Assembly: GCA_947040945.1 (NCBI GenBank)
Contig: CAMRCO010000009.1
Coordinates: 1 to 38,264 of the forward strand
Reading direction: 5' to 3'
Length of the DNA: 38,264 bases
Source: an uncultured Spirochaetia bacterium
GTDB lineage: Bacteria > Spirochaetota > Brachyspiria > Brachyspirales > Brachyspiraceae
Below the pieces are notes generated by a model. It was not told the DNA's origin, did not search any database, and saw only the letters and a list, made by a program, of their open reading frames with translations. Shown piece by piece: positions 8,793 through 24,759 of the stretch. Positions within the stretch are counted from its first letter, which is position 1, and every line of letters starts with the position of its first letter. Made by a program: the position numbers and the translations under genes.

Positions 8793-9740
8793 TTATTTCT
8801 GCTTATCTTTTTTACTAGAGTTTAGAGAATTCCTTTGCCAAAAAACTCCATCACTATAACCTTGTATTCTGTCCCCTAAATTAGCATCGAGTATTCTTTT
8901 CATCGAAACAGAGGCATATATTTTATCAATTTCAATACCAATATATTGTCTGCCAAGTTTCTTCGCAACAACACAGCTAGTGCCTGAACCTAAAAAAGGA
9001 TCAAAAATAATATCATTTTCATTACTGCTAGCCAAAATTAATTTCGCCATAAGTTTTTCTGGCTTTTGTGTTGGATGCTCTGTATTTTCAGACATAGACC
9101 AATAAGGCACCGACATTTCATCCCAAAAATTAGATGGGTATGTGTCTCTAAAGTTTCCATCTTCTGTTTCTTTCCAATCTTTAGGTTTTCCATTTTCCTT
9201 ATATGGAGCGATAACACTTTTTCTTGTTTTAACTTTATCAACATTGAAAGTATATTCATTTGACATTGTAGCAAAATAAATATCTTCATGGGCATTCTTC
9301 CAATTTTTTTTTGCCCCACGCCCCTTCTCTCTTTGCCATGTAATTCTATTTCGTACATTAAAGTGTTTTGACAAAACAGATTGCAGTGAACTTGAATTAT
9401 ACCAATCGCCACAAACATAAATTGATGCATTTGCTTTAAGTGTGTGTTTAAGTTTAATTATTATATCTTCAAAATAATCTCTATATTTATCATCACTCAT
9501 ACGCTTAAATGAAACTTCGCCAAAATCTTTATTTAAATTATAAGGAGGATCAAGTATTAGTAAATCTACAAATGAGTCAGGTAAATATTTATACACATCA
9601 AACATACTACCTAAAATAACTTTATTGACTATGTTATTTATTTCAATATTTTCTTTCACGTCTTTTATAAGAGAGAGAGATAAATATTTAATTTCATCTT
9701 GATTTAATGTTATTGTTTTATTTCTTTTACTTTTCTGCAT
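8793..9740 (-). CDS. Orphan DNA methyltransferase, beta class (probably N6-adenine)
   Basis: A 315-residue methyltransferase if it starts at ATG 9740; a TTG at 9788 would add 16 residues, and neither start has a clear Shine-Dalgarno. The catalytic motif IV DPPY is at residues 64-67 and the SAM-binding motif I (FDPFLGSGTS) at about 246-255. This order, with the target recognition region between, defines the beta class; DPPY allows N6-adenine or N4-cytosine. The central part (REKGRGAKKNWKN, HPTQKPEKL) recalls the M.RsrI-like group, from memory. No restriction enzyme gene is adjacent, so it is an orphan. It sits head-to-head with the terminase gene at the phage-cluster boundary and is probably part of that element or a remnant of a larger prophage. 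Confidence 0.88.
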   Translation of the reverse strand: MQKSKRNKTITLNQDEIKYLSLSLIKDVKENIEINNIVNKVILGSMFDVYKYLPDSFVDLLILDPPYNLNKDFGEVSFKRMSDDKYRDYFEDIIIKLKHTLKANASIYVCGDWYNSSSLQSVLSKHFNVRNRITWQREKGRGAKKNWKNAHEDIYFATMSNEYTFNVDKVKTRKSVIAPYKENGKPKDWKETEDGNFRDTYPSNFWDEMSVPYWSMSENTEHPTQKPEKLMAKLILASSNENDIIFDPFLGSGTSCVVAKKLGRQYIGIEIDKIYASVSMKRILDANLGDRIQGYSDGVFWQRNSLNSSKKDKQK

Positions 9741-9892
9741 ATTTTTAATTCGATATTTAAAAGTAGCATATAACTTCTTAAAAGTCAAACTAAAACATAA
9801 TATTTACTTATAACTTTTGTATAAGATTGCAACAAAATTATTTTATTAAAAGTTAAAAATAAATCAAAAATATAATCTATGGATATAAATAA

Positions 9893-11323
9893 ATGGTAGT
9901 ACATATTGACATTATAAAGCCATTTGAAACATGGCTCAATGAGGACAAACGTATTAAAGTAGCATTTGGTGGACGTGGCGGTGGAAAAAGTGAATCTATT
10001 TTACGCATGCTTTTAGTTTTAAGTTTCACTAATAATGAGTGTACTTTTTTATTTGCACGTGAAACAGAAGCGTCTATTAAATACTCAACCTACTCTCTTA
10101 TTACTCATCTAATTAAAAATAATCAATTAACAGAATATTTTCATGTCACAAAAAAAGTGATAACAAACAAAATCACCAATGTAAAATTTATATTTACTGG
10201 TTTACGAGAATACTCAATCGATAAAGTTAAAAGTATACATAATATTAAATACTGTTTTATTGAAGAAGGACAAACTATAACTCAGGGAAGTTGGGAAGTT
10301 CTTGAACCATCAATACGTGCCTCAAAATCTGAAATATGGTGGGCATTTAATCCTAGAAAACTGCTTGATCCAATTTATCAAACTGTAAGCAAATATACTC
10401 TCAAAGATAAAATATATACTAAAGACAATGAAAAAGATTATAAGTATTCTGAATACATAGATAAAAATACTCTTATAACAAAAGTAAATTATGACGGCAA
10501 TCATTTTTTTAGTGAAATACTTGAAACCAGCAGAAGTATGAGTCTTCAAAACACTCCTAATTTATATGGCTATATTTGGCTTGGAGAATTAAAACAAGAA
10601 CAAGGCAGAATATTCTTAAAAAGTAAATTAAAATTTTTTAATGTTCATAAGTATAAAAAAAATATGAGTCCAGAACATGTAGCTCGAGCCATAATTGATC
10701 CTGCATTTGGTGGCAAAAACTGTTTTACAAGTTGTATAATTTATGTAAAAGTTCAAGATAAATACTACATATTAGACTCAGGTCTTATGCGTAATCAGGA
10801 TGACAAAACCACTGATGAGAGCATCACCAAGTTCCTAGAAGAAAGAAATATAAAAGAGATAATGTGTGAAGCTAATTTTCAGCAAGGTGAGTTAATTAAA
10901 AAATTGAGACAAAATAAATTTATTGTAACTCCTTTTTATGTGCGTACTAGTAAAATTGAGAGAATAATAAACGCCTCTATTCCAATACGTGAAAATTGCT
11001 ACTTCGATGACAGGTCATTAGTAACTCCAGATGAAAATGAAATGCCTTACTGGACGAAGTCATCACATGGCAGAAATTTTATAGCAATGATGCAACTACT
11101 CGGCTTTAGTGATAATCAAAATGAAAACTGTATTAAGGGCGACGACTTTAGTTTTATTGATTTTCCAGATGCTTTGGCTAGCTTAATACTTTATAGCAAA
11201 AATTATTTAAATACGTTAGACAAAAGTACTAATAAAAACTACTACATACTCTTTAATAGTGAAGATGAAAAAAATCCACGAGAGAAAAAAAATAATAAGG
11301 GGTTTAATTTTGGAATTAAATAA
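9893..11323 (+). CDS. Phage terminase large subunit
   Basis: A 476-residue packaging motor. The ATPase domain has Walker A GGRGGGKS (26-33) and Walker B CFIEEGQ (121-127, with the catalytic Glu following). The C-terminal half holds an RNase-H-like nuclease with acidic IDPAFGG near residue 268 and FIDFPDAL near 420. It belongs to the PBSX/Terminase_3 type. It translocates DNA into the prohead through the portal and cuts it. ATG 9893 is the only sensible start; the Shine-Dalgarno is weak (GGAT), and a TATAAT at 9871-9876 is the only promoter-like element. This is the first gene of the head-tail run; no recognisable small terminase subunit lies upstream, where one would normally be. Confidence 0.92.
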   Translation: MVVHIDIIKPFETWLNEDKRIKVAFGGRGGGKSESILRMLLVLSFTNNECTFLFARETEASIKYSTYSLITHLIKNNQLTEYFHVTKKVITNKITNVKFIFTGLREYSIDKVKSIHNIKYCFIEEGQTITQGSWEVLEPSIRASKSEIWWAFNPRKLLDPIYQTVSKYTLKDKIYTKDNEKDYKYSEYIDKNTLITKVNYDGNHFFSEILETSRSMSLQNTPNLYGYIWLGELKQEQGRIFLKSKLKFFNVHKYKKNMSPEHVARAIIDPAFGGKNCFTSCIIYVKVQDKYYILDSGLMRNQDDKTTDESITKFLEERNIKEIMCEANFQQGELIKKLRQNKFIVTPFYVRTSKIERIINASIPIRENCYFDDRSLVTPDENEMPYWTKSSHGRNFIAMMQLLGFSDNQNENCIKGDDFSFIDFPDALASLILYSKNYLNTLDKSTNKNYYILFNSEDEKNPREKKNNKGFNFGIK

Positions 11324-12617
11324 TAATGATGAAAAAAATGATCTTGATAAAAAAATATTAGACTATTATGAAAAAAAAATTGACATCGTATTAAAGCAAA
11401 ATAATGACCTTAAAAAGTATGCTTTAGATACAAGTGCCAATAGCGGAATAATAGATACATATCTTACAAGAGGCACATTCAGAAGCTCATTCTCAAATCC
11501 ACGTGAACAAACTATAATGGCAGAAGAGATGGCAAATGAAGGATATTTTAGCTTAGCATTAAAACAATTTACTAGCCTTTGCAAAAGTGTTAATGTAAAA
11601 CTCGGGTATAAATCTAAACATTTAGAAGACTGCCCTAAACATAAAAAAGTTCTTGAGTTTGTAGAAAGGCAAATTAATAGAGTTGGTGGATACGAAATAT
11701 TATTTGATAAAATTGTCACCCCTTCTTTAAGATGGGGTGTAGGTATTGCTATACCTGAACTTACCCTTACTGGAAAAAATAAAGATATGGTAGGTTTTAA
11801 TAGACTTAAAACTATAAATCTTCAAAATGTAAAAGGTTTTTATTTTGACCCTAATGACACAAGTCGAGTTAAAGTATTAAAATATATTACATTTCCTAAA
11901 GCAATTGAAATTGATGATATTGATAATCCTTATAGCAATATTAACGAAGACACACCTGTCTCTTTAATATCCATCGACATAGAAAAAAATTGCATAGCAT
12001 ATCATGCACATAATGCACTTGACGGCAATCCATTTGGTACATTTTATCTCTACTATTTATACTCATATTATAAGCAACATAAAAAACTTTCAGAAAGTTT
12101 ATACAATGCCCTACATAGTTTTGGAACATATCCTATGGGAGTTAGACGCACGTCAAGAGATAGCGGAGCTGATAACACACAATGGGAAATGGAGGCAACG
12201 GCAAGATTACTTAATCTCATGTCTGAAGGTGGAGGGCTTTATGTTGATGGCGAAGGTGAGCTTTATACACTAGATGCTCCTGATACAGAAAAAATGGTAT
12301 CGTCTATGGAAATGCTTTTTGATACTGTTATGCGTACAAGTTCACTTGGACAAATTACAACTGGAATAAAAGGTGGTGGTAGTCGGGACTTAATGCGTTC
12401 ACTTGATATTTTTACAGACAGCTTTGTGCTTGCTACAGTAAAAAAAGCATATCTTGATATATCTGAAACTATGATTAGAAATTTATGTGAATTAAACTTT
12501 TCACATAATTACAAAACAGAAAAACTTTTAGAGTATCCATATTTAATTGTAGAAGATCATTTTAATTCTATAACTGACAAATTAGATAAAAAAGTAGAAA
12601 AAGAAAATAAAAAATAA
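11310..12617 (+). CDS. Phage portal protein
   Basis: About 435 residues starting at TTG 11310, chosen because AAGGGG (11297-11302) lies 7 nt upstream; the frame is open further 5' but has no other good ribosome site. The start overlaps the terminase stop by 14 nt, suggesting translational coupling. The segment with HNALDGNPFGTFYLYYLYSYY-like sequence, and the later GGGSRDLMRSLD, match the pattern of Mu gp29 / DUF935-type portals. The portal forms the dodecameric DNA entry ring at one capsid vertex and docks the terminase. Position directly after the large terminase and before the protease supports the call. Overall similarity to well-known portals is low. Confidence 0.72.
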   Translation: MELNNNDEKNDLDKKILDYYEKKIDIVLKQNNDLKKYALDTSANSGIIDTYLTRGTFRSSFSNPREQTIMAEEMANEGYFSLALKQFTSLCKSVNVKLGYKSKHLEDCPKHKKVLEFVERQINRVGGYEILFDKIVTPSLRWGVGIAIPELTLTGKNKDMVGFNRLKTINLQNVKGFYFDPNDTSRVKVLKYITFPKAIEIDDIDNPYSNINEDTPVSLISIDIEKNCIAYHAHNALDGNPFGTFYLYYLYSYYKQHKKLSESLYNALHSFGTYPMGVRRTSRDSGADNTQWEMEATARLLNLMSEGGGLYVDGEGELYTLDAPDTEKMVSSMEMLFDTVMRTSSLGQITTGIKGGGSRDLMRSLDIFTDSFVLATVKKAYLDISETMIRNLCELNFSHNYKTEKLLEYPYLIVEDHFNSITDKLDKKVEKENKK

Positions 12618-12633
12618 TTAGGAGCAAACAAAA

Positions 12634-13590
12634 ATGATTAAAAAAACTTTTAGAATACTTAAGCATAAGCTTAGGTGGTATAAACGTGATTTAGATTCTG
12701 ACAACATTTTTACACAAATTAGAGAAGAGTTTATAGGAAAAGACATTTGGGATAAGGCTGTGAAAAGATTTAAAGATGAAGGATTACCTTTATCTATTTA
12801 TGAAAATCATGATCACAGTAGTATTATAGGAAATGTTTTGGACATAGAGGCAAAAGATGATGGGCTTTATGTTACAAAGCATAGCTTATTTGAAAAAGGT
12901 AAAAATATTATAAGAAGCGGTAAATATACCTTGCCATCAATTGATGCTGTAATTTACAAAGATGCTGATAATAAAATTTGTGATTTAGAGTTATTTGGAA
13001 TTAGCTTAGTAAGTAGTGCGGGAGCAAAAAATGTTGAGCTTGTAACTATGGGTAAGTATGGTGAAAAAATAGCTTTATCAAAAATAAAAGAAAAAACAAA
13101 AAAGGAGGATTTTATTATGGATAAAAATCTAGTTTGGCAAATGTTTGAGGATGATGACTTTATTAAAGATATACCAGAGGGTATTATTGATAAAGTTATA
13201 GAAAATCATAAAGACTATATTACAGAAAAACTTAAAAATATGTCTTTAGAAGATGAAGCCGCAATAACAGAACTTGATGACGACACCGAAGAGGAAAAAA
13301 TCAAAAACACTAAAGAGACAAAAGAAGCAGAAGTACTTGCTATGTCTAAGTTTGATGACCAAATTTCATTTTATGAAGTCGAAAATAATTGCAAAGCGAT
13401 ACCTTCAAGTATTAAAAGAGCTAAAACATTTATAAAAAGAAATCATAAAAATATGGGAGATAAGTCTATTGGAATTGCTTTATCTGAACTTGAATTTTAT
13501 GGTCATAAAAGTGAAGAGAAAATTTTAATGGGAAAACTTTATAAAGAAAAAACATTAAAAGACATTACAACATCAATATTAAAATATTAG
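12634..13590 (+). CDS. Prohead protease-scaffold protein
   Basis: 318 residues. Residues 50-130 carry the prohead protease pattern: a His-containing segment (ENHDHSSIIGNVLDIEA, H59/H61), then DGLYV, then a Ser-containing strand (SGKYTLPSIDAV, S102) and the LFGISLVSSAG strand. These are the likely catalytic His and Ser; the third residue is not assigned. Residues 162-318 are helical and strongly charged, as expected of an internal scaffold. This domain order is that of the Mu I/Z and lambda C/Nu3 pairs. The protease would mature the capsid and destroy the scaffold. ATG 12634 has AGGAG upstream. The gene lies between portal and decoration protein, exactly where this function is expected. Confidence 0.72.
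   Translation: MIKKTFRILKHKLRWYKRDLDSDNIFTQIREEFIGKDIWDKAVKRFKDEGLPLSIYENHDHSSIIGNVLDIEAKDDGLYVTKHSLFEKGKNIIRSGKYTLPSIDAVIYKDADNKICDLELFGISLVSSAGAKNVELVTMGKYGEKIALSKIKEKTKKEDFIMDKNLVWQMFEDDDFIKDIPEGIIDKVIENHKDYITEKLKNMSLEDEAAITELDDDTEEEKIKNTKETKEAEVLAMSKFDDQISFYEVENNCKAIPSSIKRAKTFIKRNHKNMGDKSIGIALSELEFYGHKSEEKILMGKLYKEKTLKDITTSILKY
13117..13590 (+). CDS. Nested capsid scaffold protein from internal start
   Basis: Inside the protease gene and in the same frame (codon 162), an ATG at 13117 is preceded by AAGGAGG (13102-13108) with an 8-nt spacer, stronger than the site of the parent gene. Initiation here yields a 157-residue protein equal to the C-terminal scaffold region: acidic, charged and helical (LDDDTEEEKIKNTKETKEAE). 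Phages Mu (I/Z) and lambda (C/Nu3) make their scaffold in this way, as an in-frame nested product of the protease gene. The ribosome site and frame are seen directly; production of the protein is inferred. Confidence 0.7.
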   Translation: MDKNLVWQMFEDDDFIKDIPEGIIDKVIENHKDYITEKLKNMSLEDEAAITELDDDTEEEKIKNTKETKEAEVLAMSKFDDQISFYEVENNCKAIPSSIKRAKTFIKRNHKNMGDKSIGIALSELEFYGHKSEEKILMGKLYKEKTLKDITTSILKY

Positions 13591-13604
13591 GAGATTATAA
13601 AACA

Positions 13605-14027
13605 ATGAGTAATAAGTTAAACTTTATGGAAGGTAAAAGACTTATAGTGAATGGAGACAATGAACTTAATATTGACTTCAGTGTCAATTGGAATGAAGTT
13701 GAGCTAGCAAGCCCAATTTCAGTAGACAATAAAAATCAAGTTCATCCATTTATTGATGGAGAGACATTTCTAGGATTATTATCATATAAAAGTGGAATAA
13801 AAAATAGTAATGTACAAATAGATGGTGTAAACATAATAGAAATATGTTACTTGAAAGCAGGAAGTTTTTTTCATGTGAGAGCAGGAGAAGACGTAAAAAC
13901 TGGAGATGGACTTAAACCAGCAAGTAATGGATTTGTTAAAGCCACAGATGCATCTAGCATAAAATGTTTTGCTATCACAAACGCTTTAAAAGGAAATGTA
14001 TTAACAGTTAGAGGAGGAAATTATTAA
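13605..14027 (+). CDS. Head decoration/stabilising protein
   Basis: 140 residues directly before the capsid gene. The C-terminal half (AGEDVKTGDGLKPASNGFVKA) has the small beta-barrel pattern of DUF2190-type or lambda gpD-like capsid cement proteins, in which a value is held 'in the range of the capsid surface' by short turns; the N-terminal half is also strand-rich. It probably binds the outside of the expanded capsid. ATG 13605 has AGGAG about 10 nt upstream. Its stop overlaps the capsid start in TAATG. The assignment rests on position and pattern, not on a diagnostic motif. Confidence 0.62.
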   Translation: MSNKLNFMEGKRLIVNGDNELNIDFSVNWNEVELASPISVDNKNQVHPFIDGETFLGLLSYKSGIKNSNVQIDGVNIIEICYLKAGSFFHVRAGEDVKTGDGLKPASNGFVKATDASSIKCFAITNALKGNVLTVRGGNY

Positions 14028-14983
14028 TGACAAATTATAATGCAAAAGATATAGCACAACTAGAAGTGGCTGTCTCAAGTAAACTTTCAGCATATTCACA
14101 AGAATCACAACTCATAAGTAAAATGCTACCTAGTATAAGAATTAATTCAACTAATCAGCGTTTCCCAATATTTGAGGGAATGAATGCTTATAATCCTTCA
14201 GCTAATGGCTCAAGTGTAGAAATACTAGAACCAAGTACTGAATATAAGGACGCTGCTATTTTTTATACAAATAAAAAAATAGAAATACCACTTGCGACTA
14301 AGCGTTCAATGACAGCAATTGATGACCCTGATGGTAGCCAACTTATATCGCTAATAGCAAAGGCAGTTGCTGAAAGTAAATTTGTAACATTGGAATATAA
14401 TATACATAAAGCAATAGCCGCTCAAAAATATGAAGCAGGCAAAAATATATTTACAGCAGGAAATATTAATCAAGATAATTCAGGACTAGGATTTAGAGAA
14501 GCCGTAAACAATGCGATATCTTACCTAAAAACCACTCTAAATGGAATGAGTCATTCAAGACGAATAATTATGGCAATACCTGAAAAAAGCTGGTACAAAC
14601 TTACAGCAAGTCAAAAGCTATCTAATTTCTTTAACGGGTATGGCATGGCAAATACTAACTTCAACATACAGACTATAGAATCAATTTTTACTGAAAACTC
14701 TGGCACAAATGTTCAGGCAGCTGTTGGCGGTATGCGTTTTCTTGATAGTAAATTTGCTTCAGGAGAATCTGAACTTATATGGAATGAAGACCTTGAGTTC
14801 TATATTTTCACAAGCACAGATGATGTGTTTGCTGACAGAGCCTCAATTAAAAAACTTGAAGGAATTGAAAGACTTAGTGTAGTTGAGGATGGAAACAATA
14901 CAAGAATCGATTTCTATACAGACTATGGATACTATATTGACAAAGCTGAAGCATTTACTAAAGTAACTTTTTCTATAGTATAG
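14027..14983 (+). CDS. Major capsid protein (HK97-fold type)
   Basis: 318 residues, about 35 kDa, of the Mu gpT/gpE-like capsid type. Features include an N-terminal helical arm, a central LATKRSMTAIDDPDGSQ segment, conserved AESKFVTLEYNIHKAI helix, and near the C-terminus ADRASIKKLEGIERLSV and a final strand-rich stretch. No separate N-terminal delta domain of the HK97 kind is visible, consistent with a separate scaffold encoded by the previous gene. ATG 14027 overlaps the upstream stop (TAATG) and has GAGGAGG at 14011-14017, the strongest ribosome site in the cluster, fitting the most abundant product. Confidence 0.82.
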   Translation: MTNYNAKDIAQLEVAVSSKLSAYSQESQLISKMLPSIRINSTNQRFPIFEGMNAYNPSANGSSVEILEPSTEYKDAAIFYTNKKIEIPLATKRSMTAIDDPDGSQLISLIAKAVAESKFVTLEYNIHKAIAAQKYEAGKNIFTAGNINQDNSGLGFREAVNNAISYLKTTLNGMSHSRRIIMAIPEKSWYKLTASQKLSNFFNGYGMANTNFNIQTIESIFTENSGTNVQAAVGGMRFLDSKFASGESELIWNEDLEFYIFTSTDDVFADRASIKKLEGIERLSVVEDGNNTRIDFYTDYGYYIDKAEAFTKVTFSIV

Positions 14984-15004
14984 AAAAATTATAAAGGAAA
15001 TAAT

Positions 15005-15304
15005 ATGTACATAGGAAAAGTTGTTAATATAGACCTTGATAATTTACAGATTTTTGAAAAGGTATACACACTTAAAAAAGGCACTATATTTTTAGCCCGT
15101 GATGGAGTTCTTCATAATCAAATTAAAGCTGATTTTGTAAAAATATTAAAGCATGTTAAATCTAGGAAAGATACTGATTTACGAGAATATGTAGAAGTTC
15201 AAAATTATGAGAATAAAAACTTCATAAAAAAAGAATTAGATAAAGAAGAAAGTAATATAGAGACTGCAAAAAAAGAGATACCAAAAAATACAAACAGAAA
15301 GTAA
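15005..15304 (+). CDS. Small phage protein of unknown function, head-tail region
   Basis: 99 residues. The N-terminal 50 residues alternate strands (IGKVVNIDLDNLQIFEKVY) and the C-terminal 40 are highly charged and lysine/glutamate-rich. I do not recognise a family. Position between the capsid and the first connector suggests a small virion or head-completion role. AAAGGA precedes ATG 15005 at good spacing. Confidence 0.6.
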   Translation: MYIGKVVNIDLDNLQIFEKVYTLKKGTIFLARDGVLHNQIKADFVKILKHVKSRKDTDLREYVEVQNYENKNFIKKELDKEESNIETAKKEIPKNTNRK

Positions 15305-15318
15305 TAGAGAGGGACAAA

Positions 15319-15711
15319 ATGAAAGTAAATGTAACTATAGATGATATTAAAAGAAGCGCTAAACTTCTTGATTATGGAAACAATGAGTATAGCAAACAAA
15401 TCACTGATGATGAGATTAGTTTTTATTTAATTGATATTAAAAGCCAAATTGAAAGTTGGATATCAAAGTTAAAATTATCTTTTAAAGAAAATGATATATC
15501 TTACTACTATATTAAAAGATATATCATACTTGAAACTATAGTTGCATTAGCTTTTAGTAATTATACAGAAAATAATAAAGGCTATATAGAAAGTCTTAAA
15601 CTCGAAAGAGATAAATATCAAAACTTAATTGAAAAAAATACTAAACGCTTTGTAGGTCAACTTAAATCTCAAGAAGTCCCAAAACTTAGAAATGGATTTT
15701 TATTTAAATAA
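15319..15711 (+). CDS. Head-tail connector protein (adaptor type)
   Basis: 130 residues, mostly helical, with an N-terminal DDIKRSAKLLDYG segment, a DDEISFYLIDIKSQIESWI helix and a central IKRYIILETIVALAF helix. This resembles the helical-bundle adaptor proteins (Mu gp36 / DUF1320 or HK97 gp6-like) that bind beneath the portal. The call is based on size, helix pattern and position after the capsid; no catalytic motif is expected. GAGGG lies before ATG 15319. Confidence 0.52.
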   Translation: MKVNVTIDDIKRSAKLLDYGNNEYSKQITDDEISFYLIDIKSQIESWISKLKLSFKENDISYYYIKRYIILETIVALAFSNYTENNKGYIESLKLERDKYQNLIEKNTKRFVGQLKSQEVPKLRNGFLFK

Positions 15712-15729
15712 TTATTTTAAGGATAAAAA

Positions 15730-16263
15730 ATGATAATAAAAGAAATAAAAGAAGATTTACTTTTGTTTTTAGCTGATGAGTATTTTGATACTAATTGGAA
15801 TATAAAAAATGGAAAAGGAATGTTCAATAAAGGCTTAGAGCATAAATATAAAATAAATAATTTTAGTTTAGGAAATTTTAGAGAACTAGCCAAAAATTTT
15901 TTACTTGTTCAAGTTAAAAGTATAGAAGCTACAAAAAGTGATTCACTTGGTCAAATAGGACTTATAAATTTTGGTAGCAAAATAAATATGCTGATTAGCA
16001 TAGAGCAAAATACTATACCTACAAACTCAAGTTTTATAAGTGATCTATATATAGACACTTTATATAAAAGACTTCAGCAATTTATTTACTTATATAGAAA
16101 TAGAATAACACCAATAAATCCTGAAATAAATATTAGTAGGTATTATGACAAAATCGAAAACACATCAAATGATATAAATAAAATTACTATAAATGCTAAT
16201 TTAATATTTCATTATAAATTACAAGATTTAAGTTTAGAGGAGGAAGTAGACAATGATAGATGA
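15730..16263 (+). CDS. Putative tail completion/terminator protein
   Basis: 177 residues. A helical N-terminus (IKEIKEDLLLFLADEYF) is followed by strands and a later helix (YIDTLYKRLQQFIYLYRNR), then a final strand pair ending in NANLIFHYKL. This layout and the position just before the tail tube gene fit the tail-terminator or neck group (Mu gp37-like). Not recognised by a specific motif, so tentative. AAGGA precedes ATG 15730. The 3' end overlaps the next small gene by 11 nt. Confidence 0.48.
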   Translation: MIIKEIKEDLLLFLADEYFDTNWNIKNGKGMFNKGLEHKYKINNFSLGNFRELAKNFLLVQVKSIEATKSDSLGQIGLINFGSKINMLISIEQNTIPTNSSFISDLYIDTLYKRLQQFIYLYRNRITPINPEINISRYYDKIENTSNDINKITINANLIFHYKLQDLSLEEEVDNDR

Positions 16264-16399
16264 GTCTTGGGTAAATTTTTTAAAAGTCCATAAAGAAAAT
16301 ATTACTAAAAAAAATAAAAGTAATAAGATAGAAAAAAAATATGATATTAAAAATAAGCCAAAAAAATATAAAGAGGATATTAAAAATGACAGACCATAA
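16253..16399 (+). CDS. Small basic 48-residue phage protein
   Basis: An ATG at 16253 with a perfect AGGAGG (16238-16243, 9 nt away) opens a 48-codon frame ending at TAA 16397-16399. The product starts MIDESWVNFLKVHKENI and is then lysine-rich, with 16 or so Lys. It overlaps the gene before (11 nt) and the tail tube start after (14 nt), a coupling pattern used throughout this cluster, which supports it being real despite its size. Function unknown; the position is that of a minor neck or tail protein, or a translational coupler. Confidence 0.6.
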   Translation: MIDESWVNFLKVHKENITKKNKSNKIEKKYDIKNKPKKYKEDIKNDRP

Positions 16400-17765
16400 A
16401 GGATTAAAAGCATTTGTTGGAAGTGAATATAATATAAGAGTTGCGAAGTCTTCAAACAGTAAAGAGTTTATAGATTTTACACAAAAAGGAAATACAAAAC
16501 TTATTTTTCCAACATCATTTACAGTAAAAAAGAATGTTGAAGTTATTGATCAAGCAAGAATAGGTCTTCCTACTAATATTAAAATATTAGGCAAAAGCCA
16601 AATAACAGGCGATATGGGAGATATTATAACACCTAATGGGATAGCTTTTTATACAGCTATGAGCCTTGGTGGAATTACAAAATCATTAGAAAATAATAAA
16701 GCTTTTATAAGTATTGAGTATGATGGAAACTTTATACTTGACATAACAAAAGATATTAACGGCAAAACTACACAAGTTGATTTAGTTTTAGATGAAATTA
16801 CAAAAAGAGGTATTCCTATAACTGAGAATATGACTGTAAATGACTTTATTCAATTAGTTAATTCTTTTAAAACCCTAAGTGATGAAAATGAATTTTTGGC
16901 AACTATGCATATAGGACTTGGATCTGAAATATTAAATTTTGAAGAAGGCAAAAATGACTCAGTAACGTCTATTAATTCATCTATTAGAAACTTTTTTAGA
17001 GTGGGAGATTTGAGTGAAGAATACAAAGCGACTATTGCTCCATATATCAATTTTATAATCCCTAAAAGAGGAAACCCAGAATACTTTAATATCTTAGTTT
17101 CAAGTAGAAATGCTCTCCTAAATACTCAGTATGCAGGATGCAGAATGCTTACACTTAATATGGCTTATCAAAATAATAACCTTACAAATATTACAACAAA
17201 TATATGGGCAGGATATGACAAAAATTTTGATGGAGAGGCTTCACAAGCAGAAGTTGATGATGTATCAAATGCATACTCTCAAACCAATGGTCGCACTAAA
17301 GTATTTTATTCAGGTAAAACTGCTATGGCATTATCAAGTATAACAAATAATTTTGAATGGATAATTGAGCCTAATTGGAATATATCAAATGCCCCTTATG
17401 AAGTGCCAATATCGAAGTATGCTGACAGTTATGATATAGAAGCTATGTTTAATGAAGAAACTAAAGATATTTTTCAGGACAGAGTAAACAATAATAAAAA
17501 TATATCTTTAATGATCGAAACAAGCACAATGAAAAATGGTAAAGAATATAAAATAATAAAATCAACAAAAACACTACTTGGACAACCACAGTATCCGTCA
17601 ATTGCTGATGGCGTTATAAGTTTACAGGCATCAGGATTCACGTCAAAGGCAAGCGTATATGACCCTTACACAACTCTTATGATTATAACTAGTGATATAA
17701 ATATAGGAGTTAATTATACAGAAGAGGAAATATCAAAAGATTTTTCTGGATATACAAATATATAA
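16386..17765 (+). CDS. Major tail tube protein (siphophage type)
   Basis: 459 residues from ATG 16386, chosen because AGAGG (16372-16376) lies 9 nt upstream. The N-terminal part has an early ARIGLPTNIKILGKSQITGD strand and the GIAFYTAMSLG segment. The C-terminal half shows the typical tube strands: MLTLNMAYQNNNLTNITTNIW, then KVFYSGKTAMAL, then EWIIEPNWNI and ISLQASGFTS. Tube proteins stack as hexameric rings around the tape measure and form the DNA channel. At 459 residues it is larger than the usual 150-350; a helical stretch at about 130-200 (TVNDFIQLVNSFKTLSDEN) looks like an insertion. I see no tail-sheath pattern, so the tail should be non-contractile. Confidence 0.65.
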   Translation: MTDHKGLKAFVGSEYNIRVAKSSNSKEFIDFTQKGNTKLIFPTSFTVKKNVEVIDQARIGLPTNIKILGKSQITGDMGDIITPNGIAFYTAMSLGGITKSLENNKAFISIEYDGNFILDITKDINGKTTQVDLVLDEITKRGIPITENMTVNDFIQLVNSFKTLSDENEFLATMHIGLGSEILNFEEGKNDSVTSINSSIRNFFRVGDLSEEYKATIAPYINFIIPKRGNPEYFNILVSSRNALLNTQYAGCRMLTLNMAYQNNNLTNITTNIWAGYDKNFDGEASQAEVDDVSNAYSQTNGRTKVFYSGKTAMALSSITNNFEWIIEPNWNISNAPYEVPISKYADSYDIEAMFNEETKDIFQDRVNNNKNISLMIETSTMKNGKEYKIIKSTKTLLGQPQYPSIADGVISLQASGFTSKASVYDPYTTLMIITSDINIGVNYTEEEISKDFSGYTNI

Positions 17766-17788
17766 ATTTAATTTTTTAAGGAAATAAA

Positions 17789-18109
17789 ATGTACAAAAAT
17801 GATATTATCGATTTTTCAAAAGATCAAATTATTACAATACCGGTTAAAGATATAAATGTTAAAGACAAAGTTGAGCGTAGATATGGGGACTTATCAAAAT
17901 GGTTTAAGTCAGGAGACCGCATAGAGTTTGATGACAGTGCTGCTACTTTTATATCTATAAAAAATTCTGCCACTATTTTAGAATGTTTCAAAACTATAAA
18001 GCTTAGTGTAGTAAGAGATAGTGTAGAAGTTAACTTAAATAAAGAACCTTTTCACTGTGTATCAATGATAAATAAGTGCATAATGAGTTTTTTTGTCCTT
18101 GGGGCTTAG
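17789..18109 (+). CDS. Tail assembly chaperone, short form (gpG-like)
   Basis: 106 residues; the N-terminal half is strand-rich (DQIITIPVKDINVKDKVERRYGD), like the small G-type chaperones that lie between the tail tube and tape measure genes in siphophages. AAGGA precedes ATG 17789. Near the 3' end the run T TTT TTT (18088-18094), aligned on the codons of this frame, allows a -1 slip into the next frame, giving a 197-residue G-T fusion (102 residues from this frame and 95 from the next). Normal termination at TAG 18107-18109 gives the short form. Chaperones coat the tape measure before tube assembly and are absent from the finished particle. Confidence 0.78.
   Translation: MYKNDIIDFSKDQIITIPVKDINVKDKVERRYGDLSKWFKSGDRIEFDDSAATFISIKNSATILECFKTIKLSVVRDSVEVNLNKEPFHCVSMINKCIMSFFVLGA
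18088..18094 (+). other. -1 programmed ribosomal frameshift site T TTT TTT
   Basis: Seven T residues fit the slippery pattern X XXY YYZ exactly with respect to the codons of the upstream frame (AGT TTT TTT GTC). After slippage, reading continues TGT CCT TGG in the -1 frame. The -1 frame is bounded upstream by TAA 18073-18075, so the switch must fall between there and TAG 18107; this heptamer is the only candidate. A T-run could also act by transcriptional slippage. Confidence 0.78.
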
Positions 18110-18381
18110 ATCTTAAAGTAAAAGAACTTAGTTTAATAGCCCCCTACTATTATAAAGGAACATCTGAAAGTATTTTAGATTTATATTTCAAGATAACTGA
18201 AAAAACAGTTTCAAAAGGTCGTGATATACTTATAAGGCATAGTCAAGTTTTAAGAGAAGCATTAGCTTTTACATTAAGTGGATTAAGTTACCAATATGAT
18301 GATTATGAAAAAAGAGTACTACTAAATTATGCTATAGGTTTTTTTAAGATAGAAGAAAAAAAATTATTAAACAAAAGTTAA
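18094..18381 (+). CDS. Tail assembly chaperone, frameshift-encoded T part
   Basis: The -1 frame continues for 95 codons after the slippery site to TAA 18379-18381. The encoded part is helical (IAPYYYKGTSESILDLYFKI and IRHSQVLREALAFTLSGL). No ATG, TTG or Shine-Dalgarno gives it an independent start; a GTG at 18076 lies in the overlap with no ribosome site. It is therefore annotated as the 3' portion of the G-T fusion. In lambda and many other siphophages the T part binds the tail tube protein, while G binds the tape measure. Confidence 0.72.
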   Translation, partial: CPWGLDLKVKELSLIAPYYYKGTSESILDLYFKITEKTVSKGRDILIRHSQVLREALAFTLSGLSYQYDDYEKRVLLNYAIGFFKIEEKKLLNKS

Positions 18382-18395
18382 ATGTGGAGAACATA

Positions 18396-19808
18396 ATGTC
18401 TGATTATTATAATAAACATCTTAAAGAAATATCAACAGATATTGCTTTAACAAAAAAATCATTTAATGATATTCAAAAAGAATTTAGAAGCCTAAACTCT
18501 GAAACAGACAAACTTATAAAATCTATAAGCAATATAAAATCGGCTTCAAGTTCCAAAGTCAAAGATAGTAATGATAGTGAAAATGAAGGTATAGAAGAGG
18601 TATCAAATACTGATAATATAGAGTACATAAATAATGAAATTAAATTATTAGATGAAACTTTACTTAAAGATAGACTTGCTATGCAAGATACTCTTTCTAA
18701 GTCAATTACAAGTAGCAATGATGAAATATCAAAATCATCAAATAACAGTTTAGGTAATTTAAGTTCATCACTAAAACTGGTAGAAACTGAAATAACTAAT
18801 TTAGAAGTAGCAACAGATAGTTCTAACACTAAAATAAACTCAATGTTTGATGCTTTAGATAAAAATGCTCGCAACTTATCTGGAGCATTTGGATCAATAT
18901 CAAACAGCATTATGAGTATAGTAAAAGATAATTGGAGTGCTAATATAACAGATTTATCAGAATATGATAATGCAATTGAAGAATCAAAAAACAAACAAAT
19001 TGAGGCACTTAAAGAACTTGAAGAAAAATATAAAGAAAACAATGACATTGAAAAAGAATTGTATATTGAAAAACTTAATGAAGAATATGAAAGGTCTATT
19101 GAGGCAAATGATATGCTCAGTGCTAATGCAATTGAAAATCGTCTTAAAGAACTTACAGAAGGAACTGAAATTGATAATAAAGAAACTGCTTTAAAAAAGA
19201 AACAAGAAGAAGAAAAGAAGAAAATTTTAGCACAAACAAATTATGATATATCAGTAGCTGAATATAATAAAGCAAAAGCAGAACATGATAATGAAATAGC
19301 ATTAGCTGAAGTGAAAAAAAATAAAGCTATAGCTGATGCTACTTTGGGGTTGGCAAATGCGACTATACAAGCAGCTGTTATGCCACTTACGGCAGGTGCT
19401 AGCGGTGGTATTATAGGTTTTACAACAGGAGCAATAATGGCAGGAACCGCATTGACTGCTGTTGCCTCTGCTGTAAGTGGTATTAGTAATGCTACACAAA
19501 ACCTTGACTCTATAAAAGCAAATGCTCCTACCCCTCCTGCTTCTCCAAAATTTGCTTATGGAACTTCTGGGTACACTCTTAGGGAAGGCGAAAGTGCTAT
19601 TGTTGGAGAAATGGGACATGAGATTGTAAGAAATAAAGGTGGAGATTTGGAAGTTATTTCAACAGAAAGAACTAAAGAGATTTCTAGCCCTAATGGTATT
19701 AATATCAATAATTTTATAGTTGAAGTTAAAGAGCTTGTAAATGCTGACCAAGTAATAGATATATTAAATGAATTAAAAAGTAGGAATTTCAAATATGCCT
19801 TACAATAG
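18396..19808 (+). CDS. Tail tape measure protein
   Basis: 470 residues from ATG 18396 (GGAG 7 nt upstream; the frame is open from GTG 18384). Residues 1-330 are mainly coiled coil and rich in Ser, Lys and Glu, with long heptad stretches (IEALKELEEKYKE-like). Residues about 305-365 are a hydrophobic Gly/Ala-rich segment (TAGASGGIIGFTTGAIMAGTA). The end carries the common tape-measure signature SGYTLREGESAIVGEMGHEIV. It sets tail length; at about 0.15 nm per residue, as known from other phages, the tail would be about 70 nm, short for a siphovirus. No peptidoglycan hydrolase domain is seen. Confidence 0.85.
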   Translation: MSDYYNKHLKEISTDIALTKKSFNDIQKEFRSLNSETDKLIKSISNIKSASSSKVKDSNDSENEGIEEVSNTDNIEYINNEIKLLDETLLKDRLAMQDTLSKSITSSNDEISKSSNNSLGNLSSSLKLVETEITNLEVATDSSNTKINSMFDALDKNARNLSGAFGSISNSIMSIVKDNWSANITDLSEYDNAIEESKNKQIEALKELEEKYKENNDIEKELYIEKLNEEYERSIEANDMLSANAIENRLKELTEGTEIDNKETALKKKQEEEKKKILAQTNYDISVAEYNKAKAEHDNEIALAEVKKNKAIADATLGLANATIQAAVMPLTAGASGGIIGFTTGAIMAGTALTAVASAVSGISNATQNLDSIKANAPTPPASPKFAYGTSGYTLREGESAIVGEMGHEIVRNKGGDLEVISTERTKEISSPNGININNFIVEVKELVNADQVIDILNELKSRNFKYALQ

Positions 19809-20604
19809 TAGACTAAAAATAGTTAAAGATAAAGATATAAAATATTTTAACCTAATAGATATTTCAAGCAGTGTTTCTGTTGATACTATAAAAAATGATT
19901 ATAAAGTTATTGATGGAAATAGAAATGAAGGTATTCTTCAAGGTATAGGTTTAGTATCGGCAGGAAGAAAATTAAGTTATGCTATTCCAATATATGAAAT
20001 AAATAATACTGATAAAAACAGTTTATATAAAAACATAGCTGAATATACTTCTCTTTTAATGAATAGCTACTCCTATAGTTTTTATATAGAGCATTATATA
20101 AATAATTTTTGGTATTCCGCACGTGTAAATATTATAGAAACATCAGGCTATACATTAAAATTGACTAACCATATTGAAGGCTTTAGTTTTAAATGCCAAA
20201 TGATAGATAATTTTTTTACTGGTGACACGATAGAAGAAGATATAGGATTTAAAGGTATAGGAATTAAAGATATTGAATATTTTAGTAAATCTCTAGTTCC
20301 AAGTAATATTTCTTTTGAATGGGAAATAACAGGAAAAGCTGGAAATTTAAACGCACACTTAATTCATAGCAGAAATTATGGAATGCGTATTCAAACAAAT
20401 TTACCATCTGGTACTCATAAATTAAAATATAAAAATGATACACTAACGCTTTATGATGAAAACAGCAATAATTATAATGGCATTTTAATAGAGTATAGTG
20501 GCGTACAACCATTTTTAGATATAGGTAGAAACATATTAAATATAAAAAGTAATTATAATACAATCAGTTTTATAATTAAATATAGCAAAGGTATAGCATT
20601 ATGA
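19795..20604 (+). CDS. Distal tail protein (Dit-like)
   Basis: 269 residues, strand-rich throughout, starting at ATG 19795 within the end of the tape measure gene (14-nt overlap). Position after the tape measure and before the hub protein is that of the distal tail protein, which forms the ring joining tube to tail tip. The N-terminal half (NRNEGILQGIGLVSAGRK, followed by IPIYEIN) resembles the tube-like Dit core, and the C-terminal part (ISFEWEITGKAGNLNAHLI) a galectin-like extension. Assignment is by size, fold pattern and order. The stop overlaps the next start as ATGA. Confidence 0.6.
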   Translation: MPYNSRLKIVKDKDIKYFNLIDISSSVSVDTIKNDYKVIDGNRNEGILQGIGLVSAGRKLSYAIPIYEINNTDKNSLYKNIAEYTSLLMNSYSYSFYIEHYINNFWYSARVNIIETSGYTLKLTNHIEGFSFKCQMIDNFFTGDTIEEDIGFKGIGIKDIEYFSKSLVPSNISFEWEITGKAGNLNAHLIHSRNYGMRIQTNLPSGTHKLKYKNDTLTLYDENSNNYNGILIEYSGVQPFLDIGRNILNIKSNYNTISFIIKYSKGIAL

Positions 20605-22151
20605 ATTATACTGGATTTATACTCAATTATTTTTTGTCAAACTCTACTAGCATATCTGAAAAAAAACCTGATATAGATACATATATAAAAATAGCAACTG
20701 ACATATTCTATTTATCAGTAGGAGCAAATTTTGAAAGTTTTGAGTTTAAAAAAAATAAACGTGGTGGAGAAAGTGGAAAAATAAAATTTCCTAAAGTATT
20801 TGGTCGTTACACTATAAATGATACAGTGGAGTTTATACTTAAAGGCGAGAAAGTATTTAAAGGTGTAATTGAAAAAATAACAGACTATGGACTTACACTT
20901 GAAATTATTCCTCTATGGGGTTTACTTGATTATGTTTTTATTACAAATACTTTAGAACTTGAAGAAAGCTCAAAAGTATACGACTTAGTTTTGTCCCTCA
21001 AAGATAAAATAGAAAGTATAGGTATTAAATTTAATAAAGAAAATATTTTAATTCCAAAAGATGATAACACATTAATCACAACTACCTTAGCAGGACGTAG
21101 CATAAGAGACATACTCGATGAACTTGAAAAAGAGCTTCCTAACAATTATGTTTATGGAGTCGATAGTAATAGCGAGTTTTACTTCAAAAGTTTTTCTGAA
21201 GAGGCTACTCTAAAATTAAGCTGGCATAGAAATAATTTTTCTGATACTGAATATGAAGAAGATTACTCAGAGCTTTATAGTCAGTATGTTGTAAAAATTA
21301 AAGATAATAGCATGAACGCTTTTAACGTTTTAAAACCAATTTTAGGAGAAGACCCCAAATATCCTAAAACATATATAACTGATTTAGTAGGAAAAAAAAC
21401 ACGCATTTTTGAATATAACTTTGAAGCAAATGAAACTGAAGCTCTAGAATATGCTTACAATCATTTAAAAGCACAAGTGGCTATTCAAAAACTTAAAGTA
21501 AAAAATATAAACTATAAAAACATATCCCTTCAGCAAAATAAAGCTTATAAAGTTATACTTAAATCTCAAAATAGTTTTTTTGAAGATTTCAATATAGATT
21601 TCTCAACATCGATTACAGTTGGCACTGATAGAAATTCTGGTGAGATTATAAAAATAGGATACCCAATTGGATATGCTAGAAGAACTAGATACACTAATGG
21701 AGTACTGTATCTTAGTAAACAAATTAATTATTTATCTTTATGTAACAGAGCTTTAGATATATATGAAATTATTGTCTACTATATTAGTAATAATAAAACT
21801 AACTTATTTAGTATAACAGATGGAGTGAATACTATAAATAAATTTGGTAAAAATGGAATCCTTAAATGTGATATAAAAGGATTTGATAAAAGAAATTTAA
21901 TTATAAAAAATGAAAAAAATGATGCCTTAAACTATAGTGGAATTATCTTTAAGAAAGTGCGTGCTTTCTTTACACAAGGAAGTAGAGAAATTGATTTAAA
22001 TATCAGAAGTATGGATTATAAATATAGTAAAGGCATACTAAAACTAGATATAAATATGGCAAAACTTAATTCAGTACTTACAGGATATTTTTATGAAAAA
22101 GAAAAGAAACTTGAAAAATTAGAAACTTTACTTACGAATAGTAAGAATTAA
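20601..22151 (+). CDS. Tail hub / tail-associated protein (Tal-like)
   Basis: 516 residues, about 60 kDa, starting at ATG 20601 in an ATGA overlap with the distal tail gene. The first 350 residues fit the gp27/gp44-like hub fold: VEFILKGEKVFKGVIEKI strand pair, LAGRSIRDILDELEKELP, and WHRNNFSDTEYEEDYSELYSQYVVKI. In siphophages this protein closes the tail tip and touches the cell. The C-terminal 150 residues are of unknown fold. No lytic domain is evident. Confidence 0.62.
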   Translation: MNYTGFILNYFLSNSTSISEKKPDIDTYIKIATDIFYLSVGANFESFEFKKNKRGGESGKIKFPKVFGRYTINDTVEFILKGEKVFKGVIEKITDYGLTLEIIPLWGLLDYVFITNTLELEESSKVYDLVLSLKDKIESIGIKFNKENILIPKDDNTLITTTLAGRSIRDILDELEKELPNNYVYGVDSNSEFYFKSFSEEATLKLSWHRNNFSDTEYEEDYSELYSQYVVKIKDNSMNAFNVLKPILGEDPKYPKTYITDLVGKKTRIFEYNFEANETEALEYAYNHLKAQVAIQKLKVKNINYKNISLQQNKAYKVILKSQNSFFEDFNIDFSTSITVGTDRNSGEIIKIGYPIGYARRTRYTNGVLYLSKQINYLSLCNRALDIYEIIVYYISNNKTNLFSITDGVNTINKFGKNGILKCDIKGFDKRNLIIKNEKNDALNYSGIIFKKVRAFFTQGSREIDLNIRSMDYKYSKGILKLDINMAKLNSVLTGYFYEKEKKLEKLETLLTNSKN

Positions 22152-22172
22152 AAAATTATTTAAGGACATACA

Positions 22173-23105
22173 ATGAAAAAAATATTTAGTATCAGTTCAA
22201 CATACAACCCATTTAGAAATAATATAGACTTAAAAAATGTAAGCGAAAACTTTTTTATAGGGAGTAGTAATTTTATTAATGACTCTATAATAAGTGTTGA
22301 AACAGGTCTTATTCCAACACCAGAAAGTTTTCTGACTGAAACTTTTGTTGCAAATATATTAGACACTAATGGTGTTATTTTGAAAAAACTTAAACAGAGA
22401 ATAGGCGAAAAAGGAAATAATAATTATCCTAAAGAAGATGAAGTTATTTGGTTTGATATAGAAGGAATGCAAGGAGATTATTGGGTTAATGATATTTGGG
22501 AGAATAAAATACTTAGTTTATCAGGATACTTTGAAATGACTGCCATAACAAGTAAAACATCAGCATTAAACCTTATAGGTTGCATTATGGCTTTCTCTTG
22601 CAATGATTTAAATAAATTACCACCTAATAGTATGCATTGCGATGGAGCAGAAGTATCAAGAACTATTTATAATAATTTATTTAATGTTATAGGTAATTCG
22701 TGGGGACATGGTGATGGAGAAACTACATTCAATTTACCTGATGGACGCAGTGGAACACTTAAAGGAATTGGAAATGGAGTGCTAATAGATGATGACATAG
22801 AAAGCCGTTTTCAAGCTAAAACAGGTGGTAATGCTGGCAGTCTAGTTGGTAGCTATCAAAAACATGGTATCGAAAGTAAAAGTTTTAATCACAATCATAC
22901 TATAGAATTTATTTTAGATGGCAATAAAGCTTCTGGGTCAGGGGATTATGGAAATTTAGAAGGAATAGATATGTCTAATAATAATAAGAGTGTCCGTACA
23001 AAATATAATGGACTAATAAAGAGTCAAAATACAGAGCTTACAGTAGGCGATGCTAATTCTACTCGTGACAATAATTTAGGTGTGCATTGGATAATTTTTT
23101 ACTAA
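22173..23105 (+). CDS. Tail fibre with phage tail-collar domain
   Basis: 310 residues. Residues about 125-205 are a clear tail-collar domain: IGCIMAFSCNDLNKLPPNSM, CDGAEVSRTIYNNLFNVIG, WGHGDGETTFNLPDGRSG. The last 100 residues are Gly/Asn/His-rich and include SFNHNHT, a His-rich element as in metal-binding fibre tips. Such proteins bind the host surface at the tail tip. AAGGA precedes ATG 22173. The N-terminal region should attach to the hub. It is the last clear virion gene, followed by the lysis-type membrane proteins. Confidence 0.85.
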   Translation: MKKIFSISSTYNPFRNNIDLKNVSENFFIGSSNFINDSIISVETGLIPTPESFLTETFVANILDTNGVILKKLKQRIGEKGNNNYPKEDEVIWFDIEGMQGDYWVNDIWENKILSLSGYFEMTAITSKTSALNLIGCIMAFSCNDLNKLPPNSMHCDGAEVSRTIYNNLFNVIGNSWGHGDGETTFNLPDGRSGTLKGIGNGVLIDDDIESRFQAKTGGNAGSLVGSYQKHGIESKSFNHNHTIEFILDGNKASGSGDYGNLEGIDMSNNNKSVRTKYNGLIKSQNTELTVGDANSTRDNNLGVHWIIFY

Positions 23106-23116
23106 GGATTTGAAAT

Positions 23117-23428
23117 TTGGAAAATATATTTATAAAAATAATAAACGAGGTTATAAAAATTTTAATACCTGCTACATTCACTTTTTTCATAGGATATATT
23201 TTAGCTTATAAGAAAACATTAAAGGCTGTTATAGAAATACAAAAAATAATAGCGAAAAAAGAAATTATATTTATTTTTAATAAGTATAAAAAAGTTAAAA
23301 AAATACCATTAGAAGAAAAACTAGACTTAAGTAATTTATATAGTGCTTATAAATTACTTAAAGGAAATGGACAAGTAGATACTATAATAGAACATATAAA
23401 AAACTGGAAGGAGAAAGACATCACATGA
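23117..23428 (+). CDS. Holin-like membrane protein
   Basis: 103 residues starting at TTG 23117 with AAGGA (23104-23108) 8 nt upstream. One hydrophobic segment at about 14-32 (ILIPATFTFFIGYILAY) is followed by a basic, helical cytoplasmic part. Size, single membrane segment and position after the tail genes suggest a holin or a similar membrane accessory protein. Not diagnostic. It overlaps the next gene as ATGA. Confidence 0.5.
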   Translation: MENIFIKIINEVIKILIPATFTFFIGYILAYKKTLKAVIEIQKIIAKKEIIFIFNKYKKVKKIPLEEKLDLSNLYSAYKLLKGNGQVDTIIEHIKNWKEKDIT

Positions 23429-23640
23429 ATACTAATAATGGCAAAGGAAAAATAATATCATTAATTGTAAAAGTATATGCTATATTATTTGGAGGAATAA
23501 GTTTTTTTATATTAAGTATTATATTTAAAAGATTCCCAAGTCTTGATGAGTCTTTAGGTATTCTTTGTTTAATGCTCGGGTTTGAATGTGTAATAGCGTC
23601 AATCGATATATCTATGATTATAAAAAATATTAGAAAATAA
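23425..23640 (+). CDS. Small membrane protein, second holin-like
   Basis: 71 residues with two membrane segments (about 10-32, KVYAILFGGISFFILSIIF; about 43-63, LGILCLMLGFECVIASIDI) and basic ends. The ATG overlaps the stop of the preceding gene (ATGA), so the two are coupled, like holin pairs or holin/antiholin. It ends 5 nt before the converging prfB stop and closes the phage cluster. No endolysin gene accompanies the pair. Confidence 0.5.
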   Translation: MNTNNGKGKIISLIVKVYAILFGGISFFILSIIFKRFPSLDESLGILCLMLGFECVIASIDISMIIKNIRK

Positions 23641-23645
23641 ACTAT

Positions 23646-24759
23646 TTAATTATGTTTATTTGCCATTTGTAGCTTAAGATACGCAAGTATAAAACCATCA
23701 ATTGCCCCATCCATAACAGCACTAATATTTCCAGTTTCATGCCCTGTTCGTAAATCTTTTATCATTTGATATGGATGAAAAACATAACTACGTATTTGAT
23801 TGCCCCAAGCAATATCAGTTTTTTCGCCTGCTATTTTTTCTTTCTCTTTATCTAACTTTTCTTTTTCAAGTTGATAAAGCTTCGACTTCATAATTTTCAT
23901 AGCCATTTCTTTATTACTATGTTGGCTTCTTTCTGCCTGACACTGAACCACTGTATTTGTTGGAGTATGAGTTATTCTTATAGCAGAAGAAGTTTTATTA
24001 ACATGCTGTCCTCCAGCACCTGATGCTCTAAACGTATCAATTCTAAAATCAGACATATTAAGATCAATTTCTATATCTTCATCAATTTCTGGCATAAGGC
24101 TTACAGCAGCAAAAGATGTATGCCTTTTAGCGTTCGAGTCAAAAGGTGATATTCTAACAAGTCTATGCACTCCTATCTCTGAACGCAAATAGCCATAAGC
24201 ATAAAGTCCTTCAATATAAAAATTTATCTGCTTAATGCCTATCTCATCACCATAAATCTCATCAACTATCTCTATCTTAAATCCACGATTCTCACAAAAA
24301 CGTATATACATTCTTGACAACATAGAAGCCCAATCACAACTTTCAGTACCACCTGCTCCCGCATTAAGTGTAAGATAAGCATTTTTAGTATCAAACTCAC
24401 CTGAAAAAAAGTTCTTAGTTTCTATTTCATCAAAATGCATTTTTATAGTAATATATTCACTTTCAATATCCGCTAACATAGATAAATCATTATCATCCAT
24501 AGCAAGCACTGTAAGATCATAAAGGTTAGAAATATCATTTATAAGTTTATCTAAAGGTTCAATTTTATCAATTAAAAACATACGTTTTTTCATAATATTT
24601 TGTGCTTTTATATTGTCAATCCAAAAATCATCTTTACCAGAAAGCAAATTAATATCTTCTATTTCTTTATAAATTGCATCAGGGTCAAAGATACCCCCTT
24701 AATGTAATTAAAGTCTCTTTTAAATCTACTAATAAATTTTTAATTTCAGAAAGTGTCAT
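23646..24759 (-). CDS. prfB: Peptide chain release factor 2, with programmed +1 frameshift
   Basis: The gene starts at ATG 24759 with a 24-codon frame ending in TGA (24687-24685), then continues in the +1 frame to TAA at 23646, for a 370-residue product. RF2 ends translation at UGA and UAA. The codon-recognition SPF motif is at 204-206 and the catalytic GGQ at 249-251, within one residue of the E. coli numbering. The mid-gene stop is not a mutation but the known RF2 autoregulation device. The start lies 21 nt after galK on the same strand, so the two are probably cotranscribed. The 3' end converges on the phage cluster with a 5-nt gap. Confidence 0.96.
24684..24699 (-). promoter_or_regulatory. 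prfB: RF2 +1 frameshift signal
   Basis: On the minus strand the sequence reads AGGGGGTATCTTTGAC. It has a Shine-Dalgarno-like AGGGGG, a 3-nt spacer, the CTT slip codon, then the TGA stop followed by C, the same core as E. coli prfB. When RF2 is scarce the ribosome skips one base and continues in GAC. This couples RF2 synthesis to its own level. Confidence 0.95.

Follow-up and report, generated by a model that had tools for sequence, protein, structure and literature searches.

Do the two overlapping frames in front of the tape-measure gene of this locus encode a short tail assembly chaperone and, by a -1 ribosomal frameshift, a longer fusion of the two? The window, i.e., the whole stretch of 38,264 nt that was analysed, is contig 9 of a 2.17 Mb Brachyspiraceae draft genome (130 contigs), and its GC content is 29%. 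Judged from the sequence and its relatives, it is very probable that the two frames, here called G and T, form a gpG/gpGT-type tail assembly chaperone pair that is expressed by a -1 frameshift on the heptamer T TTT TTT.

Two overlapping frames and an in-register heptamer

The junction of the two frames contains a run of seven T residues (18088-18094) with a G on each side. When the zero frame is set by the ATG at 17789, the run is read as AG(T TTT TTT) GTC, which corresponds to the X XXY YYZ register. The features of the pair are:

17789-18109, + strand: G frame, predicted short tail assembly chaperone of 106 aa with the Shine-Dalgarno (SD) sequence AAGGA; frame read from the sequence
18088-18094, + strand: slippery heptamer T TTT TTT, in register; T TTT TTR counterpart in 21/21 Brachyspira G/T junctions
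18094-18381, + strand: T frame (-1), 95 codons after the frameshift; C-terminal similarity to Brachyspira T

The G frame stops at TAG 18107-18109 and the -1 frame at 18379-18381, and translation across the junction gives a predicted G-T fusion of 197 aa. An earlier note on this DNA had described a perfect T TTT TTT in register between a 106-residue frame and a 95-codon -1 frame, with a predicted fusion of 197 residues. The frame set from ATG 17789 confirms the register, and all of these numbers were reproduced from the sequence. The accompanying statement that the -1 frame has no start of its own holds in part. This frame is open from 18076 and its first codon is a GTG; however, no SD is found in the 20 nt preceding this GTG (TGTGTATCAATGATAAATAA), whereas most other starts in the cluster have one, and no start is conserved in the relatives.

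The surrounding gene cluster and its relatives

The pair is part of a gene cluster on the + strand, which is composed as follows:

9893-11323, + strand: terminase large subunit (TerL), first gene of the cluster; Pfam Terminase_3, E 7.8e-29
11259-16263, + strand: head and connector genes (portal-like, 12634, 13605, major-capsid-like 14027, 15005, 15319, 15730); order matches Brachyspira block A
16386-17765, + strand: putative tail tube protein, the gene ahead of the frameshift pair; ATG 16386 with SD AGAGGA, the ORF call beginning at 16341
18396-19808, + strand: tape-measure-like protein; ATG 18396 with SD GGAGA, the ORF call beginning at GTG 18384
19795-23640, + strand: distal tail genes 19795 and 20601, collar-fibre-like 22173, small genes 23117 and 23425; similarity to Brachyspira block B

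Relatives were found by searching whole related genomes with TerL and the 20601 protein. When the 106-aa protein, the fusion and the 14027 protein were used as queries against relatives, phages and genome contigs, and TerL against viral contigs, nothing beyond the window was returned. TerL shares 51-54% identity with the TerL of most genomes of Brachyspira, a different genus of the Brachyspiraceae, and about 31% or less with more distant TerLs; the genome of the window has one Terminase_3 match. Among the head genes, the portal-like protein matches weakly (22-25% identity to Brachyspira) and 15730 shows 37-42% identity over 60 residues, and for the major-capsid-like 14027 protein no Brachyspira match is detectable by sequence. 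The putative tube protein is 27-31% identical to its Brachyspira counterpart ahead of the G/T pair, and the tape-measure-like protein is 35-43% identical, in the aligned part, to the protein after T in one Brachyspira genome (G017). Thus the placement of the pair ahead of the tape measure, as given in the earlier note, is borne out, the tape measure being identified solely from its homology and its place in the cluster. Identities to block B amount to 28-33% for 19795, 36-40% for 20601 and 34-39% (partial) for 22173, which also matches Pfam Collar (E 1.7e-13), and 23425 resembles a Brachyspira gene near the endolysin. By these sequence comparisons, VSH-1/BhGTA, the gene transfer agent of Brachyspira, is a relative of the window cluster.

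The layout of the two differs. In Brachyspira, one block runs from portal to tube-G-T, a second block holds the homologues of 19795 and 20601, and terL usually stands on its own; the position of the tape measure gene varies, as it comes after T in one genome, next to the 20601 homologue in the majority and next to terL in still others. In the window, all these genes are contiguous and in the usual phage order with terL first. The window cluster has no recognisable integrase or replication gene, consistent with either a gene transfer agent or a defective prophage. Queries with TerL, 14027, 20601, portal and G all failed to match in the one other genome of the same genus that was searched. A domesticated element would be expected to be conserved across related hosts, and because the cluster is absent there, we do not class the window cluster as a BhGTA member. 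No endolysin was recognised in 9893-23640, whereas Brachyspira has a GH19 enzyme near the 23425 homologue; a search of the window's genome for a homologue of this enzyme, run without a positive control, found none.

Several further observations concern the neighbourhood and the relatives. A gene for an N6/N4 DNA methyltransferase (8793-9788, - strand) closely precedes terL and is encoded on the other strand. Beyond the cluster, prfB (RF2; 24759-23646, - strand) carries a classical +1 frameshift with its site at 24690-24685 (AGGGGG TAT CTT TGA C). Its ATG is at 24759, and the ORF call begins at an internal TTG, so that this frameshift is hidden. TerL is split or interrupted by in-frame stops in two Brachyspira genomes (L045 and L046; G021 and G012); these may be cases of gene transfer agents in decay, or the assemblies may contain errors.

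Sequence similarity of G and T

In a six-frame search of the window with a profile of Brachyspira T, the best match was the -1 ORF (E 0.033); the reach of this profile is limited because its source sequences are close relatives of one another. Comparison of window T and Brachyspira T by hhalign gave P 2.5e-4 with 45% identity over 40 residues; the similarity is weak and confined to the C-terminus. Between the G proteins, hhalign found no statistically supported alignment (E 0.11), and the homology of G therefore rests on its position and on T. The link between the window and Brachyspira clusters is independent of the T similarity, because it was found separately via TerL and the tail genes. 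Neither window frame matched a chaperone family in Pfam or PHROGs, and the Brachyspira pair had no match in Pfam. Tail chaperone ORFs are known for their low similarity between phages (PMC5009743). AlphaFold2 models had a mean pLDDT of 39 for G and 57 for T, too poor for a fold search.

The junction in Brachyspira

The Brachyspira G protein is present in 21 of 26 genomes, and in the same number the frame pair follows the tube gene. At all 21 junctions the second frame is the -1 frame, with an overlap of 46 nt (28 nt in one). The earlier note had proposed a comparison of the heptamer in related clusters, and this comparison revealed an in-register T TTT TTG or T TTT TTA in every homologue, read as AGT TTT TTG in 20/21 and as AGT TTT TTA in 1/21. 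The pattern recurs in 11 records of a named-genome collection. The 21 sites share ancestry and hence do not represent independent events.

Codon choice at the site is unusual. Where the two main Brachyspira clades encode the same residue, AGT and TTT are invariant between them and TTG nearly so, whereas the Leu codon after the site varies (CTA, CTG, TTA or CTC) and almost never agrees between the clades. TTG makes up 12% of Leu codons in the sampled loci vs 20/21 at the site; the corresponding values are 8% of Val codons vs 16/21 for GTG and 38% of Gln codons vs 20/21 for CAG.

Homologues with a conserved start in the second frame had been named in the earlier note as evidence against its reading. 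They were looked for, and no such start is conserved among the 21. The earliest possible -1 start falls at codon 54-58 of the ORF in several genomes and at codon 96/103 in L096. Since these first starts are scattered and often deep, Brachyspira T could hardly be made except by frameshifting. Without a start of its own, it could also escape gene callers.

A paralogous second cluster in two genomes, with G at 29% identity, retains the -1 pair. It has T TCT TTA at the heptamer position and, nine to ten nucleotides further on, A AAT TTC in register, which may be the slip site used in this cluster. In L106 and L107 (G020 and G027), the second, divergent cluster, with a tube gene and a -1 G/T pair, is distinct from the VSH-1 type copy, and its tape measure is longer (stop-to-stop ORFs of 887 and 805 codons). 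A different feature was seen in L066 of G017, where several near-identical tandem repeats lie upstream of G (16680-16970), each with AATTAAGGAGTATATAAA, the last of which supplies the G start.

Potential stimulators near the slip site

Downstream of the window heptamer, a stem is predicted from two complementary arms:

18101-18106, + strand: 5' arm GGGGCT, after a 6-nt spacer behind the heptamer; pairing prediction
18138-18143, + strand: 3' arm AGCCCC; pairing prediction

Pair probabilities are 0.99-1.0 for the five G-C pairs and 0.8 for the closing T-A pair. The local minimum free energy belongs to the lowest 1.2% among 50-nt segments of the cluster (lowest 1.2-4% for lengths of 50-90), and compared with its own shuffles the stem is not significant (z -0.87). 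A conserved downstream RNA structure was looked for at the Brachyspira sites and not found. There, the codons CAG GTG ATA create AGGTGAT, with AGG 10 nt ahead of the heptamer. Pairing of AGGTGAT to the anti-SD, whose sequence was assumed to be standard, amounts to -9.8 kcal/mol in 15/21 sites. An element of this type is absent from the window (-2.1 kcal/mol under the same assumption). Apparently, the stimulator differs between the branches, i.e., an upstream SD-like element in Brachyspira vs a downstream stem in the window.

Alternative explanations

The overlap and its heptamer could have arisen by chance, with T being a frame that has decayed or does not code. In-register X XXY YYZ sequences occur at 72/4381 codon positions (1.6%) of the cluster genes and in-register T7 at 0.14%, so that the probability of finding some heptamer by chance in a 10-codon overlap is about 15%, and that of finding T7 about 1.4%. 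The heptamer by itself is therefore modest to weak evidence, and it is its conservation that raises its weight. Against chance also speak the similarity to Brachyspira T and the -1 frame, which stays open for 91 codons beyond the G stop (P ~4e-4 from base composition). This openness is regarded as supporting only, because several other cluster genes also continue in the -1 frame, with the next gene there. Taken with the conserved site, this makes a chance origin extremely improbable. We give the same minimal weight to a homopolymer error in the assembly that would hide a single in-frame ORF: the source is a draft of 130 contigs and the site is a T run, but the two-frame arrangement is found at the corresponding place in 21/21 Brachyspira relatives.

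A fusion could also arise from RNA polymerase slippage on the T run, yielding mixed mRNAs, rather than from ribosomes, and a T7 in AT-rich DNA would favour this. Polymerase slippage normally needs longer runs, however, and the relatives have T6 only, followed by G or A. The use of TTG in 20/21 sites, although TTA is the common Leu codon, keeps the run short, and the SD-like element about 10 nt from the heptamer points to ribosomes. We consider this explanation highly improbable, if marginally less so than the preceding two. Slightly ahead of it, and still very unlikely, is a separate synthesis of T: ribosomes could initiate at a start within the T frame, which in the window would be GTG 18076, or they could terminate at the G stop and reinitiate there. 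The -1 ORF of the window indeed begins with this GTG, and an ATG or GTG overlaps the G stop in three Brachyspira genomes (L080, L081 and L083). The GTG has no SD, however, and the scattered, often deep first starts of the relatives argue against separate synthesis.

Proposed mechanism and its meaning

With -1 frameshifting as the preferred reading, most ribosomes would terminate at 18107 and release the 106-aa G protein, and a minority would slip one base back on T TTT TTT to produce the 197-aa G-T fusion, with probable help from the stem at 18101-18143. On the lambda model, the tape measure protein would be coated by G, tail tube subunits would be brought in via the T part, and assembly would be sensitive to the G:GT ratio. 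That slippage takes place, how efficient it is, what the stem does and that the pair acts as a chaperone we infer from sequence data.

Frameshifting of tail chaperones is of an already known kind. What appears to be new is that a gene transfer agent lineage has conserved it, apparently with a switch of stimulator; a limited literature search found no earlier report of a VSH-1 chaperone frameshift. With somewhat better than even confidence, we propose that an obligate -1 frameshift persisted in the Brachyspira gene transfer agent family while the agent was domesticated and its genes were scattered, and that the lineages came to differ in their stimulators: Brachyspira would use an internal Shine-Dalgarno, the window a stem downstream, and the paralogous cluster another heptamer. 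If so, a gene transfer agent lineage would not have lost its dependence on phage-style recoding. Such a dependence in turn suggests that control of the G:GT ratio is under selection, though the particle is thought not to be self-propagating.

Comparison with known systems

Lambda gpG associates with the tape measure protein, gpGT contacts the tube subunit through its T part, the proportion of the two proteins is critical, and neither is present in mature virions (PMC5009743). Lambda gpG/gpGT and the counterparts in other long-tailed phages (PMC5009743) share with the window the overlapping frames before the tape measure, the second of them in -1, and the slippery sequence close to the end of the first gene. 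However, the window heptamer is T TTT TTT and not that of lambda, the window fusion is a predicted one, and no sequence similarity to the phage chaperone families of Pfam and PHROGs is detectable.

In the -1 frameshift of E. coli dnaX, an SD-like element lies upstream of the heptamer, and the Brachyspira sites resemble dnaX in this element and its spacing, their AGG being 10 nt upstream of the heptamer. In contrast, the window has no such element, and the Brachyspira sites differ from dnaX in having no conserved downstream stem. The dnaX heptamer is A AAA AAG (PMC5009743).

Another close counterpart is VSH-1/BhGTA (Brachygtaviriformidae; PMC9662315), which has homologues of the TerL, portal-like, tube, tape-measure-like and distal tail proteins of the window and a G/T pair with T TTT TTR. 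Its genes, unlike the contiguous ones of the window, lie in separate blocks with terL apart (PMC9662315). The single-copy Brachyspira TerL outside the structural cluster was proposed to serve VSH-1/BhGTA (PMC9662315). The window represents a contiguous, terL-linked version of the cluster that is scattered in Brachyspira and therefore supports the proposed role of the detached TerL.
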